Source of the DNA: Haemophilus parainfluenzae
Lineage (GTDB): Bacteria > Pseudomonadota > Gammaproteobacteria > Enterobacterales > Pasteurellaceae
NCBI RefSeq assembly: GCF_014931375.1
Contig: NZ_CP063117.1
Location: 1,178,001-1,242,000 of the forward strand
DNA: 64,000 bases
Direction: 5' to 3'
Of the stretch, positions 10,281-52,518 are shown in pieces. The notes beneath the pieces were generated by a model, which was not told the DNA's origin, did not search any database, and was given only the letters and a program-made list of their open reading frames with translations. The translations under genes were made by a program, and so were the position numbers. The stretch's first letter is position 1. The number at the start of each line of letters is the position of its first letter.

Positions 10281-12407
10281 TTATAGATGTTTTACACGGC
10301 GTTTTACTTCTTCCTGTTTACCCGCATTGAATGGGCGAGCATCAGGACTGCCGAGATAACCGCAAACTCGTCGGGTTACAGACACTTTTGCACTGTCATG
10401 GTTGCCACATTTCGGACAAACAAAGCCTTTACTTGTGCAATTAAATTCTCCTGTGAAACCACATTCGTAACATTCATCAATTGGCGTATTAGTGCCATAA
10501 TAAGGCACGCGATCGTAGCTATAATCCCACACATCTTCGAGTGCCTTCAGATTATGTTGAATATTTGGGTATTCGCCATAACAAATAAAGCCCCCGCTTG
10601 CTAATTCAGGATAAGGCATTTCAAAGTCTAATTTATCGTATGGATTCACTTTTTTCTCTACATCTAAGTGATAGCTATTAGTGTAGTAGCCTTTATCGGT
10701 AACGCCTTCAATGACTCCAAATTGTTTGGTATCTAAACGACAGAAGCGATCGCACAAGTTTTCACTTGGTGTGGAATAAAGGCTAAATGCATAGCCAGTT
10801 TCTTTCTGCCATTGTTTGACTGCTTCACTTAAACGACGCACAATCGCGATGCCTTTTTCGCGTAGTTGTTCATCGTCAAAAATATGCCCTTGTTTATACA
10901 GTGCATTGATGGTTTCGTGAATGCCAATATAGCCTAAAGAAATTGATGCTCGGCCATTTTTGAAAATATCCGCAACCTTATCATCAGCTTTTAAGCGAAC
11001 GCCACAAGCGCCTTCCATGTAGAGAATTGGTGCGACACGGGCTTTGGTATTTTCTAAGCGAGCGATACGTGTAAGCAAGGCTTTTTTCGCAAGGGCTAAG
11101 CGTTCATCTAAAGTGCGGTAGAATTTTTCTTCGTTTCCTTGTGCTTCAAGAGCAATACGAGGAAGGTTCAAACTCACCACGCCTAGATTATTGCGACCAT
11201 CATGCACTTCATGACCGTTTTCTTCATAAGCACCCAAGAAACTACGGCAACCCATTGGGGCTTTGAATGAGCCTGTGACTTTAACCACTTGATCATAGTT
11301 TAAAATATCTGGATACATGCGTTTTGAGGCGCATTCTAATGCTAGTTTTTTAATGTCATAGTTTGGATCTTGTTCGTTTTGGTTCACACCTTTTTTAATC
11401 GTAAAGACCAGTTTTGGGAAGACTGGCGTTTTGTGATTTTTACCCAAGCCACGAATACGGTTTTTCAAGATTGATTGCTGAATTAAACGTTCTTGCCAAC
11501 TTGTACCTAAGCCAAAACCAAAGGTGACAAACGGCGTTTGGCCATTGGACGTATGGAGCGTATTAACTTCATATTCAAGGGATTGAAACGCATCAAAACA
11601 TTCTTTTTCAATTAGCGCTTTGGCATAACCTTCAGCATCCTGAATTTGCCATTGGGCGGCATTTTTCAAATGTTTTTCAAAACTGAGTTGAACATAAGGC
11701 GCAAGCACTTCATCAATGCGATTGATGGTTGTACCGCCATAAATATGGCTGGCTACTTGAGCAATAATTTGTGCGGTAACTGCTGTTGCTGTGCCGATAG
11801 ATTTAGGCGGTTCAATTTCGGCATTACCCATTTTAAAACCATGTGAAAGCATGCCTTTGAGATCAACCAGCATACAGTTAAACATCGGGAAAAATGGCGC
11901 GTAATCTAAGTCGTGATAGTGGATTTCGCCTTTTTCGTGAGCTTCCACGACATCTCTTGGCAGAATGTGACGCTTGGCATGATGTTTTGCCACAATACCT
12001 GCTAGTAAATCACGTTGGGTAGGGATCACTTTCGCATCTTTATTTGCGTTTTCATTGAGTAATTCCACGTTGCTTTGTTCAATCAGCCCTTCAATTTCTT
12101 TGGTTAATTGGCTGCGTTTTTCACGAGCAAGATCACGATCGTGACGATATTCAATATAAGCACGTGCAATTTGTGGATACTTGCTTGTCATTAAGTGATC
12201 TTCAACGATTTTTTGAATCTGGTTGATATCAATTTCATGCTGATAGTGACTAAAAATCTCGGTATTAATTCGCTGGCTCAGATCATGGATATAAATTTCA
12301 TCAACAATATTGACCGCACTTGCCGCTTTTCTGATTGCATTAGTAATACGTTGTAGGTCAAACCCAATTCGTGAACCATCACGCTTAATCACGAAGAAAG
12401 CATTCAT
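10281..12407 (-). CDS. nrdD: Anaerobic ribonucleoside-triphosphate reductase
   Basis: 708 aa class III reductase that makes dNTPs from NTPs without oxygen using formate. There is an N-terminal ATP-cone (about 1-95) for allosteric control. The catalytic barrel includes M-G-C-R-S near 380. A C-terminal zinc site with two CxxC pairs (C-Y-E-C and C-P-K-C) is followed by the glycyl-radical loop R-V-C-G-Y, the radical glycine being G683. Its activase NrdG is encoded elsewhere in the window. The upstream region has FNR, Fur and NrdR sites, described separately. Confidence 0.98.
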   Translation of the reverse strand: MNAFFVIKRDGSRIGFDLQRITNAIRKAASAVNIVDEIYIHDLSQRINTEIFSHYQHEIDINQIQKIVEDHLMTSKYPQIARAYIEYRHDRDLAREKRSQLTKEIEGLIEQSNVELLNENANKDAKVIPTQRDLLAGIVAKHHAKRHILPRDVVEAHEKGEIHYHDLDYAPFFPMFNCMLVDLKGMLSHGFKMGNAEIEPPKSIGTATAVTAQIIAQVASHIYGGTTINRIDEVLAPYVQLSFEKHLKNAAQWQIQDAEGYAKALIEKECFDAFQSLEYEVNTLHTSNGQTPFVTFGFGLGTSWQERLIQQSILKNRIRGLGKNHKTPVFPKLVFTIKKGVNQNEQDPNYDIKKLALECASKRMYPDILNYDQVVKVTGSFKAPMGCRSFLGAYEENGHEVHDGRNNLGVVSLNLPRIALEAQGNEEKFYRTLDERLALAKKALLTRIARLENTKARVAPILYMEGACGVRLKADDKVADIFKNGRASISLGYIGIHETINALYKQGHIFDDEQLREKGIAIVRRLSEAVKQWQKETGYAFSLYSTPSENLCDRFCRLDTKQFGVIEGVTDKGYYTNSYHLDVEKKVNPYDKLDFEMPYPELASGGFICYGEYPNIQHNLKALEDVWDYSYDRVPYYGTNTPIDECYECGFTGEFNCTSKGFVCPKCGNHDSAKVSVTRRVCGYLGSPDARPFNAGKQEEVKRRVKHL

Positions 12408-12565: not shown

Positions 12566-12613
12566 TTGAGAATTATTCTCAAATTATTTTTTAATAAATT
12601 TGATCTATGTCAA
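12566..12613 (-). promoter_or_regulatory. nrdD distal promoter: FNR site plus Fur box
   Basis: TTGAT-N4-GTCAA at 12600-12613 matches the FNR consensus TTGAT-N4-ATCAA at 9 of 10 positions. If FNR acts at -41.5, the -10 element would fall at 12577-12572, where the minus strand reads AATAAT (5 of 6 to TATAAT). That -10 lies inside a perfect 17-bp palindrome TTGAGAATTATTCTCAA (12566-12582) with Fur 7-1-7 character (12 of 14 to TGATAAT-N-ATTATCA). Predicted: activation without oxygen, repression by iron-loaded Fur. The operator assignments are inference from sequence. Confidence 0.65.
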
Positions 12614-12675: not shown

Positions 12676-13251
12676 TTAAGCTGCAACCATTACCATGGCT
12701 GGGCGAATCACTCGACCATTTAAGGTATAACCTTTTTGTAAAACGGTAGTGATTTGATTCGTTGCAAAGCCTTCTGCTGGTTGCATAGAGATAGCTTGGT
12801 GAAGATCCGGATTAAAGGTATCACCTACTGCACCAACAGGCTCGATACCAAAGCGAGAAACCGTTGAGAGTAACTCTTTTAAAGTCAGCTCGACACCATC
12901 GAATAGTGCTTTGATGTTTTCATCTTCCTTATTGGCTGGTGTAGCAAGCGCACGCTCTAAGTTATCAATGGTATTTAAAATGTCTTTTGAGAATTTTTCG
13001 AGCGCAAATTTATGTGCTTTTTCGATGTCTTGTTCACTGCGACGACGCATATTGTCAATTTCAGCACGCGTACGAAGCAATAAATCTTGCTCTTTTTTAG
13101 AGGTTTCTTCTACTTGTGCTTTTAATTGTTCTTCAAGTTCTTGTACACGGGCAATCGCTTCTTCTAACGGATCTTCCGTTGAGGTGGTTTCTTGCTGAAC
13201 TTCTTCAACAAGTTCTTCATTTTCATTTAAGTTTTGTGCTTGTTCTGACAT
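12676..13251 (-). CDS. grpE: Nucleotide exchange factor GrpE
   Basis: Dimeric exchange factor for DnaK. The N-terminus is an acidic tail (1-45), followed by a long coiled coil (about 46-130, E-Q-L-K-A-Q-V-E type heptads) and a C-terminal beta domain with the family motif R-V-I-R-P-A-M-V. The start is placed at the ATG at 13251 because GGAG lies seven bases upstream; the ATG at 13263 overlaps that ribosome site and is unlikely to be used. Divergent from nadK. Confidence 0.96.
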
Positions 13252-13381
13252 CTTTTTCTCCATTTATCAAAAATTAGTGCTATTTTAGCAAAACTGAATT
13301 GCTATGTAATATAATGGCTAAAATTTTAAATTCAAGTGCGGTCAAAAATCAGTAAGTCTGTACTTGGGAGCAATCATAGTT

Positions 13382-24750: not shown

Positions 24751-24838
24751 TCTATTACCTTATGAAAAATTTGGTGCATTTTAGCATAAACTTTCAAAAT
24801 AAGATAAAATGGCGCAAATTTTTAATAGGATTGTCATC

Positions 24839-26194
24839 ATGAAAACAGCAGAAAATTTAACCGCACTTTTAAAATCTCAAGAGCAAACATTGCGTGATGC
24901 AGTCAGTTTTGCGATTGAAACTGCACAGAAAGCGGGGGCAACCGCTGAAGTCGGTGTGACAAAAGTGAGTGGTTTATCGGTTTCAACCCGTCTGCAAGAG
25001 ATTGAAAATGTTGAATTTACTAATGATGGGGCATTAGGTATTTCTGTTTATTTAGGCCAACAAAAAGGCAATGCGTCTACCTCAGACTTAAGCGAAGAAG
25101 CCATTAAAAATACCGTTGAAGCAGCGCTTGCTATTGCAAAATATACCTCGCCAGATGATTGTACAGGGCTAGCGGATAAAGAACTAATGGCTTTTGAAGC
25201 ACCTGACTTAGCGCTTTATCATGGGGCAAGTGTTGATGTCGAACAGGCTACGAAATTAGCTTTAGAAGCTGAAAAAGCGGCTTTGGAATACGATGATAAA
25301 ATTGTGAATAGTAACGGTGCTAGTTTTAATTCGCATACCGGTGTGCGTGTTTATGGTAATACACATGGCATGTTACAAAGTTACTTATCTAGCCGCTATT
25401 CTTTATCTTGTTCGGTGATTGGTGGTGAACTAGATCAACTTGAAAATGACTACGAATATACAGTTTCACGTGAGTTTGATGCCCTTTCTTCAGCGGATTG
25501 GGTAGGGCAGAATTGTGCGAAAAAAGTGATTGCGCGTTTAAATCCACAAAAATTAACGACACGTGAAGTGCCGGTGATTTTCTTAAATGATGTAGCAACT
25601 GGATTAATTTCTCATTTAACGGGCGCGATTAGTGGTGGCAGCTTATATCGTAAATCCAGTTTCTTGCTCGATCATCTTGGAAAACAAGTGTTGCCAGATT
25701 GGTTCCAAATTAGCGAGCGTCCGCATTTGTTAAAACGTTTAGCCTCCACGCCTTTTGATAGCGAAGGGGTACGAACACAGGATCTTGAAATTATTCAAGA
25801 TGGCATATTGCAAACCTATTTGCTCACCAGTTACAGCGGTCGAAAAATGGGCATGCAGAGTACTGGGCATGCTGGCGGTATTCACAACTGGCTCGTGAAA
25901 CCAAATTTAACGGGTGGATTGACCGCACTTTTGCGCCAAATGGGCACCGGTTTATTGGTGACAGATGTCATGGGGCAAGGCGTAAATATTGTGACGGGGG
26001 ATTATTCCCGTGGCGCAGCAGGCTTCTGGGTGGAGAATGGCGAGATCCAATATCCAGTTGCTGAAATTACCATTGCTGGTCAATTGCAGGATATGTTAAA
26101 AAATATTGTGGCAGTAGCAGATGATGTTGAACATCGTTCCAATATTCAAACAGGTTCAATCTTGTTAGATAAGATGAAAATTTCAGGAAATTAA
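24839..26194 (+). CDS. pmbA: Metalloprotease subunit TldE/PmbA
   Basis: 451 aa from the ATG at 24839, which has AGGA before it; the longer frame from 24809 has no family resemblance. TldE pairs with TldD to form a zinc protease that trims modified peptides and degrades antitoxins. The central T-x-x-Y-S-G and C-terminal [13 protein letters not shown] motifs are present. No TldD gene is in the window. Confidence 0.95.
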
Positions 26195-26209
26195 TAAATT
26201 TCTTAAAAA

Positions 26210-26252
26210 TGATAATAATTCTTATTGACATGTAATTTCTTTCTGCTACTAT
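26210..26252 (+). promoter_or_regulatory. Promoter with Fur box for a small RNA
   Basis: TTGACA at 26225-26230, a 16-base spacer, and an extended -10 TGCTACTAT (hexamer 26247-26252) make one of the best sigma-70 promoters in the window. Just upstream and overlapping the -35, TGATAATAATTCTTA (26210-26224) matches the Fur 7-1-7 consensus at 12 of 14 positions (13 of 19 to the 19-bp consensus). Iron-loaded Fur should block this promoter. Confidence 0.78.
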
Positions 26253-26257
26253 ACGCA

Positions 26258-26358
26258 CATCTGTTTAGCAGCGATTGCAGATTGCTCCAACAGGTAGAGT
26301 AGAAAGTAAATTCGTTAGGGTTAAAAAGGCTGAAGGTTTAAACTTCAGCCTTTTTTAT
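26258..26358 (+). ncRNA. Candidate Fur-repressed small RNA (HrrF-like)
   Basis: About 100 nt from the predicted start (near 26258) to the end of a strong intrinsic terminator: AAGGCTGAAG/CTTCAGCCTT (26326-26335, 26343-26352) plus TTTTTTATT. A 5' hairpin can form from CTGTT (26261-26265) with AACAG (26289-26293), extended by AGCA/TGCT; a single-stranded, purine-rich linker (26294-26322) follows. No open frame with a ribosome site is inside. Position, Fur control and size fit HrrF, an iron-responsive sRNA reported in H. influenzae; the identity is inferred from memory of that work, not from a comparison. Confidence 0.75.
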
Positions 26359-26396
26359 TGTAGAATACGCAAACGATTAAATTAAAAGGAAAGACC

Positions 26397-26936
26397 ATGA
26401 AAAAACACCACGTCGATATTTTAATTTCAGAAGTGGACGTTCGTCGCCGCATTACTGAACTTGGCGCAGAAATTACGCATTTTTATCAACAACAAGCCAT
26501 TGATAAACTGATTGTTGTTGGGCTTTTACGTGGTTCATTTATGTTCATGGCCGATCTCGTGCGTGAATTAAAATTACCGGTAGAAGTGGAGTTTATGACC
26601 ACATCAAGTTATGGCGCTGGGATGACAAGTAATCACGATGTTAAAATTTCGAAAGATCTCGAGGGCGATATTCGTAATGAACATGTGCTGATTGTTGAGG
26701 ACATCATTGATACAGGTTATACCCTCGAAAAAGTACGTGGCATTTTAAATTTACGCGATCCTGCAAGCTTGGCGATTTGTACCTTGTTAGATAAACCTTC
26801 TCGCCGAGAAGTTGAAGTGCCTGTTGAATGGATTGGTTTTTCTATTCCGGATGAATTTGTTGTCGGCTATGGTATTGATTATGCTCAACGTTATCGTAAT
26901 CTAGGCTATATTGGTAAAGTTGTTATAGACGAATAA
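26397..26936 (+). CDS. hpt: Hypoxanthine phosphoribosyltransferase
   Basis: 179 aa. PRPP-binding motif [10 protein letters not shown] near 101-110 and the R-G-S-F-M loop near 45. It salvages hypoxanthine (and guanine) to nucleotides, which matters with a purine permease elsewhere in the window. Ribosome site AAAGGAAAG. It follows the small RNA gene but is separated from it by a terminator. Confidence 0.96.
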
Positions 26937-47009: not shown

Positions 47010-47069
47010 GAAATGTTGCAATTTTATCAAAAAGGCGTAGTCTATGTTGGCTTTGAGAATAATTCCCAA
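47010..47069 (+). promoter_or_regulatory. znuA upstream region with possible Zur half-site and Fur-like palindrome
   Basis: GAAATGTTG at 47010-47018 matches the left half of the Zur consensus GAAATGTTATA; the right half is poor. TTGAGAATAATTCCCAA at 47053-47069 is a near-palindrome of the Fur type, one base away from perfect symmetry and very like the box at nrdD. It lies in the leader, 20 bases before the start codon. Which regulator uses it cannot be decided from sequence. Confidence 0.45.
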
Positions 47070-47088
47070 TAAAAGTAAGGAAACAAAA

Positions 47089-48075
47089 ATGAAACAAGTA
47101 TTAAAAATGAGTGCAATTTCTACCGCACTTTTAACGCTTCCAATGATGGCAAATGCAGATGTATTGGCATCCGTGAAACCCCTCGGTTTTATTACATCGT
47201 CTATTGCTAATGGTGTAACAGATACGCAAATTTTAGTGCCAGCAGGTGCTTCTCCACATGATTACAGCTTAAAGCTTTCAGATGTGCAAAAAGTGAAATC
47301 GGCGGATTTAGTGGTTTGGGTTGGTGAAGATATTGATGCTTTCTTAGCAAAACCAATTAGCCAAATTGATAGCAAAAAAATCATCAATATTTCTGAGATT
47401 CCAGAAATTAAACCGCTTTTAAGCAAGGTCCATCATGAACATTATCATGAAGGCGATGAAGATGAGCACGGGCATGATCATAAGCATGGACACGATCATA
47501 AGCACGAGCATGGCCATGACCATGAGCATCACCACCACGATGTAGATGAAAATGGGTTAAGCGTGAACTGGCACTTATGGTATTCACCAGCCATCAGCCA
47601 AATTGTGGCACAAAAAGTGGCGGATAAATTAACGGAACAATATCCGGATAAAAAAGAGCTCATCGCGAAAAACTTAGCCGATTTTAACCGCACTTTGACC
47701 GAGCAAAGCGATAAGATCAAAGCGCAATTAGCCCCACTCAAAGATAAAGGCTTCTTTGTATTCCATGATGCTTATAGCTATTTCAACGATGCTTATGGTT
47801 TAAATCAAACCGGTTATTTCACCATTAATCCATTAGTGGCACCTGGTGCAAAAACCATTGCTCACATCAAAGAAGAAATTGAAGAACATCGTGTAAATTG
47901 TCTTTTTGCGGAGCCTCAATTCACACCAAAAGTGATTGATACGCTTGCGCAAAGTACAAAAGTTAATGTTGGTCGTTTAGATCCTATTGGTGATAACGTA
48001 CAGCTTGGTCCAAATTCCTATGCGAATTTCCTTCAAGCCACCGCTGATAGCTATGCTCAATGTTTAAGTAAATAA
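47089..48075 (+). CDS. znuA: Zinc ABC transporter substrate-binding protein
   Basis: 328 aa. Signal peptide (about 1-23, ending A-N-A). The domain order is that of cluster 9 metal receptors: H-D-Y-S near 60, a histidine/aspartate-rich loop (about 113-150 with repeated H-D-H-K-H-x), H-L-W near 156-158, and H-D-A-Y near 222-225. The ATG at 47089 follows AAGG. It captures periplasmic zinc for ZnuBC, which are not next to it here. Confidence 0.95.
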   Translation: MKQVLKMSAISTALLTLPMMANADVLASVKPLGFITSSIANGVTDTQILVPAGASPHDYSLKLSDVQKVKSADLVVWVGEDIDAFLAKPISQIDSKKIINISEIPEIKPLLSKVHHEHYHEGDEDEHGHDHKHGHDHKHEHGHDHEHHHHDVDENGLSVNWHLWYSPAISQIVAQKVADKLTEQYPDKKELIAKNLADFNRTLTEQSDKIKAQLAPLKDKGFFVFHDAYSYFNDAYGLNQTGYFTINPLVAPGAKTIAHIKEEIEEHRVNCLFAEPQFTPKVIDTLAQSTKVNVGRLDPIGDNVQLGPNSYANFLQATADSYAQCLSK

Positions 48076-50365: not shown

Positions 50366-52270
50366 TTATTCAACTTCTTTTTGTTTCTCTGTTTCTGAAT
50401 CATCATGAAGAAGGATTTCAACCACTGCTTCGTCATTGGTGTCATCTTCTTTTTCTAAGATCTCAGCCGTTTCTTCATTGAGTGCTTCAGCATCAGAATG
50501 TGGTTTAACGAAAGGTTTTGGCATCCAATATTTTCGAATGATGTCTGTAGAAAAACCATGTAAAACTTCTTCATTCAATCGTTCTTGATCTAAGTAACGA
50601 ACTTCAGCAATGACCTCATCAGCTTCAATTTTATTGATACCTAATTGCATTAGTGTTGCACGACTGAGCGTCAATGCAGATTCAAAGGTTTCACGCACGA
50701 TAAAGTCTACATCTTGCTTAATAAGACTCACGGTTGTTTGGCGGTCATAAGTTCGCGCCAAAATTGGGAGTTTCGGATAAGCATCTTTCAAATTCTGAAC
50801 GATGTTTTCAATACGTTGTGTATCGTTAATCCCGATGACAACACATTTGGCTTTTTCGATACCCGCTGCACGTAAAACATCAAGGCGAACACCGTCACCG
50901 TAATAAACTTTAAAACCGAATTTCGCTGCCGCACGGATGTTTTCGATGTTACGGTCAATCACCGAGACGTTAATGCCACGAACCAGAAGCGATTGACACA
51001 CGATTTGGCTGAAACGACCAAAACCAATCACGAGCACGCTATCTTCTAAATCCACAATTGGATCAAGATCGCTAGTATCGACTTTTTCCTCTTGATTCGC
51101 TGATTTGCGTTGGTTAATTTTACGCATCAATAAACCAATCAATGGGGAGAATAGCATCGAAATAATGACAGCTGCAGTAAAAGTCGCATTTTGATCTTTT
51201 GTCATCACGCCTGCAGTCGTCGCAGCAGAGAAGAGTACGAATGCAAATTCACCACCGTGCGCCATAATGGTCATTCGCCCAACTGATTCGGTGCGGTCTA
51301 GTTTTGTAATACGTGCCACGGTATAAACGGCTAAGGCTTTGCCGACGATGTAAAGGCATACAATACCTAACAACCAAACCGCATCATTGAAGACTAAACT
51401 GAGGTCAAGCGACATTCCCACGCCCATAAAGAAGAGACCAAGCAATAAACCACGGAATGGTTCAATATCGGCTTCTAATTGGTGGCGGAATGCGGATTCT
51501 GAAAGCATTACACCCGCAACGAATGCGCCCATCGCCATTGAAAGGCCACTCGCTTCCATGGCTAATGCAGCACCTAACACCACAAGTAAGGCGGCAGCTG
51601 TCATCATTTCGCGAATATGAGCTTTGGAAATCAAACGGAAAATTGGGTTCATTAACCATTTACCCGCAACCACTAAACCGACAACGGCACCGAGTGCAAT
51701 AGCAATAGATGTCCAGTTTGTGTGATGTTCAATATGTTTGGTTTCAGGCGTTAAAAAGGCAATAGAAGCCAATAATGGCACAATGGATAAATCTTCAAAA
51801 ATTAAGGTAGAAATAACGCGTTGGCCTTTTGGTGTATTCGTAATCCCGCGTTCTTCTAATACCTGCATAACAATAGCGGTGGAAGAAAGGGTAAAGCCCA
51901 TACCCGCAATAAATGCGACCTCTTTAGGAAGATTTAAAATATAGATACCAGCAAAGGTAAGCAGAACACCACATAGCCCGACTTGTAAAAGACCTCGCCC
52001 GAAAATAGCTTTTCGCATTGCCCATAATCGTTCGGGGTGCATTTCTAAGCCGATAATAAATAAGAACATGACTACGCCGAGTTCTGCCATATGTAGCACT
52101 GATTCCGCATCTTTAATAAAACTAAATACGGAAGGTCCAATTAAACAGCCTGCCACTAAATAACCCAACACGCTACCTAAGCCAATACGCTTAAAAAGTG
52201 GCACGATAGTGACACTGGTAGCAAGCAGGACAACAGTTTTAATTAATTCAGGGCTGACGACATTCGACAT
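50366..52270 (-). CDS. CPA2-family K+/H+ antiporter (KefB/KefC-like)
   Basis: 634 aa. N-terminal sodium/proton exchanger domain with about 12 helices (1-380), including I-I-G-L-E-M near 72-77. A cytoplasmic TrkA-N nucleotide-binding domain follows (about 408-530, V-I-G-F-G-R-F), and an acidic C-terminal tail (580-634). Such systems release potassium to acidify the cytoplasm during electrophile stress and are gated by glutathione. KefB versus KefC cannot be told from this sequence; no kefF/kefG partner gene is adjacent. Confidence 0.9.
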   Translation of the reverse strand: MSNVVSPELIKTVVLLATSVTIVPLFKRIGLGSVLGYLVAGCLIGPSVFSFIKDAESVLHMAELGVVMFLFIIGLEMHPERLWAMRKAIFGRGLLQVGLCGVLLTFAGIYILNLPKEVAFIAGMGFTLSSTAIVMQVLEERGITNTPKGQRVISTLIFEDLSIVPLLASIAFLTPETKHIEHHTNWTSIAIALGAVVGLVVAGKWLMNPIFRLISKAHIREMMTAAALLVVLGAALAMEASGLSMAMGAFVAGVMLSESAFRHQLEADIEPFRGLLLGLFFMGVGMSLDLSLVFNDAVWLLGIVCLYIVGKALAVYTVARITKLDRTESVGRMTIMAHGGEFAFVLFSAATTAGVMTKDQNATFTAAVIISMLFSPLIGLLMRKINQRKSANQEEKVDTSDLDPIVDLEDSVLVIGFGRFSQIVCQSLLVRGINVSVIDRNIENIRAAAKFGFKVYYGDGVRLDVLRAAGIEKAKCVVIGINDTQRIENIVQNLKDAYPKLPILARTYDRQTTVSLIKQDVDFIVRETFESALTLSRATLMQLGINKIEADEVIAEVRYLDQERLNEEVLHGFSTDIIRKYWMPKPFVKPHSDAEALNEETAEILEKEDDTNDEAVVEILLHDDSETEKQKEVE

Positions 52271-52421
52271 AGGGCAAAAAACCTTAGTAAAAACAGGGAG
52301 TATGAGAAGAAAGTTGAGTTGTATTCTAGCCTTTTTTCACTAAATAAAAAACACAGAAAAGCAAGAAATTGGTATAATTTACAAAAACTTTACACGCATA
52401 AAAATGGTCAGTTTTTTATTC

Positions 52422-52476
52422 ACAAGCTCACTCGTTCGCTTGTTCACCCCTTGTGGGGCCGTTGGCAAAGCCAACG
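52422..52476. repeat. Three consecutive hairpins in the kef/DUF441 intergenic region
   Basis: ACAAGC/GCTTGT (52422-52427, 52438-52443), CCCC/GGGG (52447-52450, 52455-52458) and CGTTGGC/GCCAACG (52460-52466, 52470-52476) follow one another with short gaps. The local GC content is higher than in the flanks, and an uptake core follows at about 52500. Could be a structured leader of the DUF441 gene or a small repeat element. Confidence 0.5.
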
Positions 52477-52518
52477 TTGAAAAACCTACGTTTTTTTTGA
52501 CCGCACTTTAGAGGTATT

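Follow-up and report, generated by a model that had tools for sequence, protein, structure and literature searches.

The interval between pmbA and hpt in the window, that is, the whole 64,000-nucleotide stretch of Haemophilus parainfluenzae DNA analysed here, almost certainly carries the hrrF gene: judged from its sequence, the segment 26257-26356 would encode a discrete, Fur-controlled small RNA. When the entire 64-kb window was searched with Rfam, the HrrF family (RF02728) gave a covariance match at 26257-26356 (+) with 114.7 bits (cut-off 77) and an E-value of 3.1e-20, covering model positions 1-116 of 116. HrrF at this place is an orthologue of an already known RNA, since its control by Fur and iron has been demonstrated before (PMC4144887), and its presence here was expected; according to its legend, the published 12-species HrrF alignment already includes H. 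parainfluenzae (PMC4144887). A published iron-response RNA is thus placed in a further genome, the genera that lack HrrF are marked, and one testable candidate target is put forward. Our general picture of small RNAs is unaffected by the finding.

The upstream neighbour, pmbA (24809-26194, +), was identified by NCBIfam NF008268 PmbA (712 bits, cut-off 438), and the downstream neighbour, hpt (26397-26936, +), by TIGR01203 (225.8 bits, cut-off 150); the Hpt protein is 99% identical to that of genome G076. The interval between them, 26195-26396, holds the Fur box, the promoter and the folded transcript. In nontypeable H. influenzae, hrrF also lies between pmbA and hpt, and its start was placed 63 nt (primer extension) or 65 nt (RACE) after the pmbA stop (PMC4144887). 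Carried over to this strain, the published start would fall at 26257 or 26259, which by sequence is 5-7 nt past the -10. Nucleotides 29-64 of HrrF are described as conserved (PMC4144887); counted from 26257 they correspond to 26285-26320, overlapping the core at 26294-26321. The initial annotation had suggested an equivalent of HrrF, and the Rfam match, the position between pmbA and hpt, the start and Fur coordinates and the conservation of the linker all agree on it. The unit had further been described as having no protein. That description stands, as the forward-strand open reading frames across it are just 25 and 36 amino acids long, both from TTG. A small-protein reading was rejected, since relatives vary in 5' length and show one-base gaps in the core, and coding therefore does not fit.

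A putative Fur box, TGATAATAATTCTTA (26210-26224, +), agrees with the 7-1-7 consensus at 12 of 14 positions. It is followed by a predicted sigma-70 type promoter (26225-26252, +), TTGACA-16-TACTAT, that scores 10/12 and has a TG before the -10; the promoter, with this extended -10, is as good as had been claimed. The 12/14 score of the box was likewise reproduced, but its proposed overlap with the -35 was not: the 7-1-7 box stops at the base just ahead of the -35 (TTGACA, 26225-26230), which it adjoins. The best 19-mer register (26205-26223, 14/19, with five such sites in the window) also leaves the -35 free, and only two registers of 13/19 each, 26208-26226 and 26211-26229, overlap it. Three Fur-like sites of 12/14 occur in the 64-kb window and none scores higher, so that the Fur box alone is weak evidence. 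In H. influenzae, Fur control acts via a predicted 41-bp stretch beginning 11 bp after the pmbA stop (PMC4144887), which, with the coordinates carried over, would occupy 26205-26245 (+) here. Scrambling of the first Fur box disrupted the control of HrrF by Fur in that species, and HrrF expression rose at low iron and without Fur (PMC4144887).

When the relatives were examined, a Fur box of at least 10/14 was found in 94 of the 95 genomes that bear the HrrF core, in 91 at most 30 nt from the pmbA stop; the sole genome under 10/14 was G086 (8/14). The score in a single genome was often only modestly above that of shuffled sequences (p 0 to 0.35; 0.97 for G086), and it is the fixed place of the putative box, rather than its score, that is telling. 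A -35 of the TTGACA or TTTACA type was present in 93 of the 95.

The transcript folded with a minimum free energy of -30.8 kcal/mol, compared with -19.1 kcal/mol for shuffled sequences (z -4.06; 1 of 200 shuffles was equally good). The predicted fold begins with a 5' hairpin (26259-26295, +), formed by an outer stem (26259-26265/26289-26295) and an inner stem (26270-26276/26280-26286). A largely single-stranded core of 28 nt follows (26294-26321, +), which on the basis of its conservation and unpaired probability is the proposed target-binding part. An intrinsic terminator (26323-26356, +) closes the unit, with a 13-bp stem (26323-26355), a 7-nt loop and a T-run, seen in both the fold and the family model. 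In this strain the unpaired probability of the linker was 0.71, against 0.28 for the rest of the unit. The proposed transcript of about 100 nt, with a 5' hairpin and an open, purine-rich linker, is well matched by these values, and the proposed intrinsic terminator was recovered too. A simple terminator scan of 25900-26700 reported none, we think because the T-run lies mostly within the stem.

Pairing was also compared across 96 units, the window's own and those of the 95 core-bearing relatives. The core stretch was less paired than the rest in 94 of them, the mean unpaired probability being 0.66 versus 0.33. The outer stem reads CUGUU/AACAG in 44 of the 96 and UUGUU/AACAA in 10, a change on both sides. 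Some 5' stem of at least 5 pairs is possible in 89, with a different stem in several genera (e.g., g2, g17, g40), and a terminator stem of at least 6 was found in 95, with 48 distinct arms. The predicted pairing in the outer stem and the terminator is therefore kept through two-sided changes. RNAalifold returned no consensus pairs for 24 genus representatives, we think because the 5' part is too variable in length to be aligned; pairing was counted helix by helix instead.

A covariance search over Pasteurellaceae had been proposed as a check, and when it was carried out with the RF02728 model, 97 of 140 genomes matched at E ≤ 0.001, 62 of them over the cut-off. No match was obtained in 14 control genomes; the whole search was run with stricter filters, by which some weak matches are lost. 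The stretch after pmbA was read in 136 of the 140 (G006, with no true pmbA match, and G132, G083 and G105 were left out), and a core-bearing unit was found there in 95 genomes from 24 genera. These comprise 94 of the 97 matched by RF02728, with the core just after pmbA, together with G133, which is unmatched by the model. The 28-nt core, which coincides with the linker singled out earlier (26294-26322), was identical in 61 of the 95 relatives, from 17 genera, and AGTAAATTCGTTAG was kept in 82; hpt lay at most 400 nt away in 79. Among the 35 matches under the Rfam cut-off, 32 belonged to genomes that carry the core downstream of pmbA. The cut-off thus misses about a third of the orthologues among these genomes, 32 of the 95 being below it and one missed altogether. 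Another match under the cut-off, in G132, represents a complete unit, Fur box and promoter included, situated elsewhere than after pmbA. For the matches in G083 and G105 no Fur-type promoter was seen, and they were judged terminator-driven and not HrrF. The second match in G082 (36.6 bits) consisted of a coding-sequence end plus a terminator, with no Fur box seen, and was likewise set aside.

HrrF was unrecognised after pmbA in 39 of the 136 genomes, and in G014 and G097 the Fur box and promoter are in place and the core has diverged. The core pattern, with 2 mismatches allowed, was searched in 46 genomes (the 43 unmatched by RF02728 plus G105, G083 and G132); matches appeared in 6, compared with 14 for the reversed control. 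Within genus g14, G042 and G044 keep pmbA and hpt 100-108 nt apart, with what looks like the remnant of a terminator in G042 at least, and full HrrF is kept in G046 and G047. Loss of HrrF within this genus is therefore likely. In G061 and G059 the distance between HrrF and hpt is about 9.5-9.7 kb, a gap reminiscent of the pilus cluster insertion that has reportedly been published for H. influenzae biogroup aegyptius.

Outside the family, 295 genomes of the order were searched, 24 of which belong to Pasteurellaceae by our own count of the listed rows. None of the other 271 passed the RF02728 cut-off; 18 gave weak matches. The best of these (G344, 47.7 bits) was rejected, the stretch containing no pmbA tail and no visible Fur box. 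In the collection of named genomes, 46 contigs contained a 22-nt core pattern, only one of them titled outside Pasteurellaceae; the other 45 we take, by record title, to belong to genera of this family. The exception, CABDVE010000001.1, carries the HrrF core and is labelled Pseudomonas stutzeri NCTC11607. It agrees in length with a contig of the Pasteurellaceae genome G129 and is probably mislabelled. A 20-nt core pattern was not found in viral contigs.

The sequence, predicted structure, position and conservation of HrrF are established in this strain; its start, Fur binding, iron response and Hfq-independent stability were demonstrated in H. influenzae 86-028NP (PMC4144887). Because the parts of HrrF are conserved, we infer that the same control by Fur and iron applies here. 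On the model of H. influenzae, Fur-Fe(II) would sit on the box beside the -35 and block hrrF transcription when iron is plentiful. When iron falls, Fur would leave, and RNA polymerase would make a discrete RNA, about 98-100 nt long, ending at the terminator ahead of hpt. The 28-nt purine-rich core, being both exposed and conserved, would then pair with messages and alter their stability or translation.

In H. influenzae, modABC is lowered and asnA, asnC and nrdB are raised with HrrF (PMC4144887); this regulon does not duplicate RyhB-type iron sparing. No later HrrF target study was found after the 2014 paper in the full-text literature, the coverage of which leaves out most subscription papers. 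Target prediction with the exposed linker, which the initial annotation had recommended, gave one lead, the ydiJ leader, with no signal for modA and no general surplus of sites. Three 16-nt stretches of the core complement were searched with up to 2 mismatches on both strands of the 11 genomes of the nearest genus. Once the HrrF gene itself was excluded, long complementary sites numbered 51, 16 and 19, whereas the reversed patterns yielded 49, 76 and 14; there is therefore no general enrichment, and only the third stretch was slightly above its control. The gene modA is the most strongly regulated HrrF gene in print, yet at 29 loci from 4 genera core pairing with its leader was not above shuffles, with ranks of 6-90 among 100. 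The set had 30 loci, G080 being left out for wrong orientation, and the modA start was set at the first start codon, apparently too early in several g5 genomes. A ykgE/lutA-like gene with strong complementarity at codons 4-9 was rejected as a target, because a conserved peptide is coded there and the complementarity was nearly as strong in the HrrF-less G136 (28 versus at most 30.5). In the only 30 genomes in which this gene was read, the native core was reached by 5 of 400 shuffles over 9 HrrF-bearing genera and by 24 of 400 over 4 HrrF-less ones.

That the HrrF core pairs with the ydiJ leader and directly represses ydiJ in the H. parainfluenzae group is a tentative proposal that we consider rather unlikely. 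Were it true, repression of ydiJ, which encodes a FAD and iron-sulfur enzyme, would add classic iron sparing to the published regulon. The label comes from NCBIfam NF049975 (D-2-hydroxyglutarate dehydrogenase YdiJ), the 492-aa query being partial and below the full-length cut-off; 90 leaders were read, out of 137 genomes with ydiJ. In the nearest genus, a site some 37-49 nt ahead of the start matches 14/16 of the core complement in 8 of the 11 genomes and 15/16 in 1, and the best site beat 60 shuffles at 0.02 or better in 10 of the 11. Over the 24 HrrF-bearing genera, 9 of 400 shuffled cores reached the native value, as against 192 of 400 over the 18 HrrF-less genera. A run of 300 shuffles gave 4 and 128, respectively, and Fisher's combination over genera gave 0.035 and 0.65. 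Shuffles were beaten at 0.05 by 18 of 64 leaders from HrrF-bearing genomes and by 0 of 26 from HrrF-less ones, kin genomes not being independent.

However, ydiJ was noticed through the nearest genus, and without that genus 27 of 400 shuffled cores equalled the native one; ydiJ is therefore only a lead. Genus medians showed no significant difference between HrrF-bearing and HrrF-less genera (p 0.17), and at 0.05 the single genera that passed were 3 of 24 and 1 of 18. The site is lacking in G080 and in 8 of 10 H. influenzae-group genomes, and the whole-genome excess of long complementary sites over the reversed control was, as stated, wanting overall. The gene is also absent from the HrrF regulon as published (PMC4144887). 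In E. coli, ydiJ has been listed among the targets of a different sRNA, GcvB (PMC8534726). In a wider and equally speculative form, HrrF might be an ancestral, lineage-restricted iron-sparing RNA. In some members of the family (the H. parainfluenzae group and scattered genera), its invariant core may directly silence iron-sulfur enzymes, YdiJ among them; other genera would have lost the RNA as well as the leader site. On that view, the core would be conserved because of several targets of this kind that the single published regulon did not capture.

For the locus itself, the Fur box and promoter might serve hpt, the RNA being merely a leader or read-through product. The gene hpt is indeed on the same strand and starts 40 nt past the terminator, but that terminator, a strong one, stands between the two, the core persists in 15 core-bearing genomes with no hpt in the stretch read, and Northern blots in H. 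influenzae detected a discrete transcript about 97 nt long (PMC4144887), so we regard this explanation as very improbable. That Fur-like, promoter-like and hairpin sequences came together by chance, a reading to which the three 12/14 Fur-like sites in the window might lend some colour, is already refuted by the conservation in relatives (95 of 136 genomes), alongside the family match (E 3.1e-20) and the fold (z -4.06), and its likelihood is negligible. A discrete, Fur-controlled HrrF remains by far the best explanation of the unit.

Other elements of the window were recorded as well. An 11/14 Fur- or Zur-like site (47054-47068) lies at the start of the ORF 47044-48075 (+), which looks to us like znuA. 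A Fur-like palindrome, TGAGAATTATTCTCA (12567-12581, 12/14), is located between the ORFs 12676-13263 (-) and 10281-12407 (-), presumably grpE and nrdD (anaerobic ribonucleotide reductase), respectively. Beside this nrdD-like ORF it may be noted that nrdB belongs to the regulon published for HrrF (PMC4144887). A match to Rfam RF02902, AaHKsRNA22 (Aggregatibacter sRNA 22), with 63.3 bits (cut-off 39.8) was found at 52404-52506 (-); it is flanked by divergently oriented ORFs, whose starts are at 52270 (-) and 52519 (+).

RyhB of Enterobacteriaceae is a Fur-repressed sRNA that is produced when iron is scarce and has a terminator as well as an exposed stretch for pairing, and HrrF would be like it in all of these. 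The description of the unit as RyhB-like logic without RyhB sequence was borne out, the RyhB family giving no gathering-level match in the window and none at E ≤ 1 in 26150-26450. Unlike RyhB, HrrF of H. influenzae is stable without Hfq, and its known targets, as published, are not the classic iron-sparing ones (PMC4144887). With NrrF of Neisseria and PrrF of Pseudomonas it would share indirect positive control by Fur, although it is reported to have no sequence similarity to them (PMC4144887); families named NrrF or PrrF gave no match in the window or around the HrrF site. HrrF of H. influenzae is about 97 nt long, has a half-life of about 7 min and is not Hfq-dependent (PMC4144887). Its expression has been reported for H. 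influenzae on epithelial cells (PMC12306180), and it is also mentioned in PMC4986893 and PMC8895709. For a long form, HrrFL, a second terminator is required (PMC4144887); none is visible in the 40 nt between the terminator and hpt, so that here, unlike in H. influenzae, we see room for the short form only. The RNA of this strain is like HrrF of H. influenzae 86-028NP in its family model, neighbours, start distance, Fur region, core and length.
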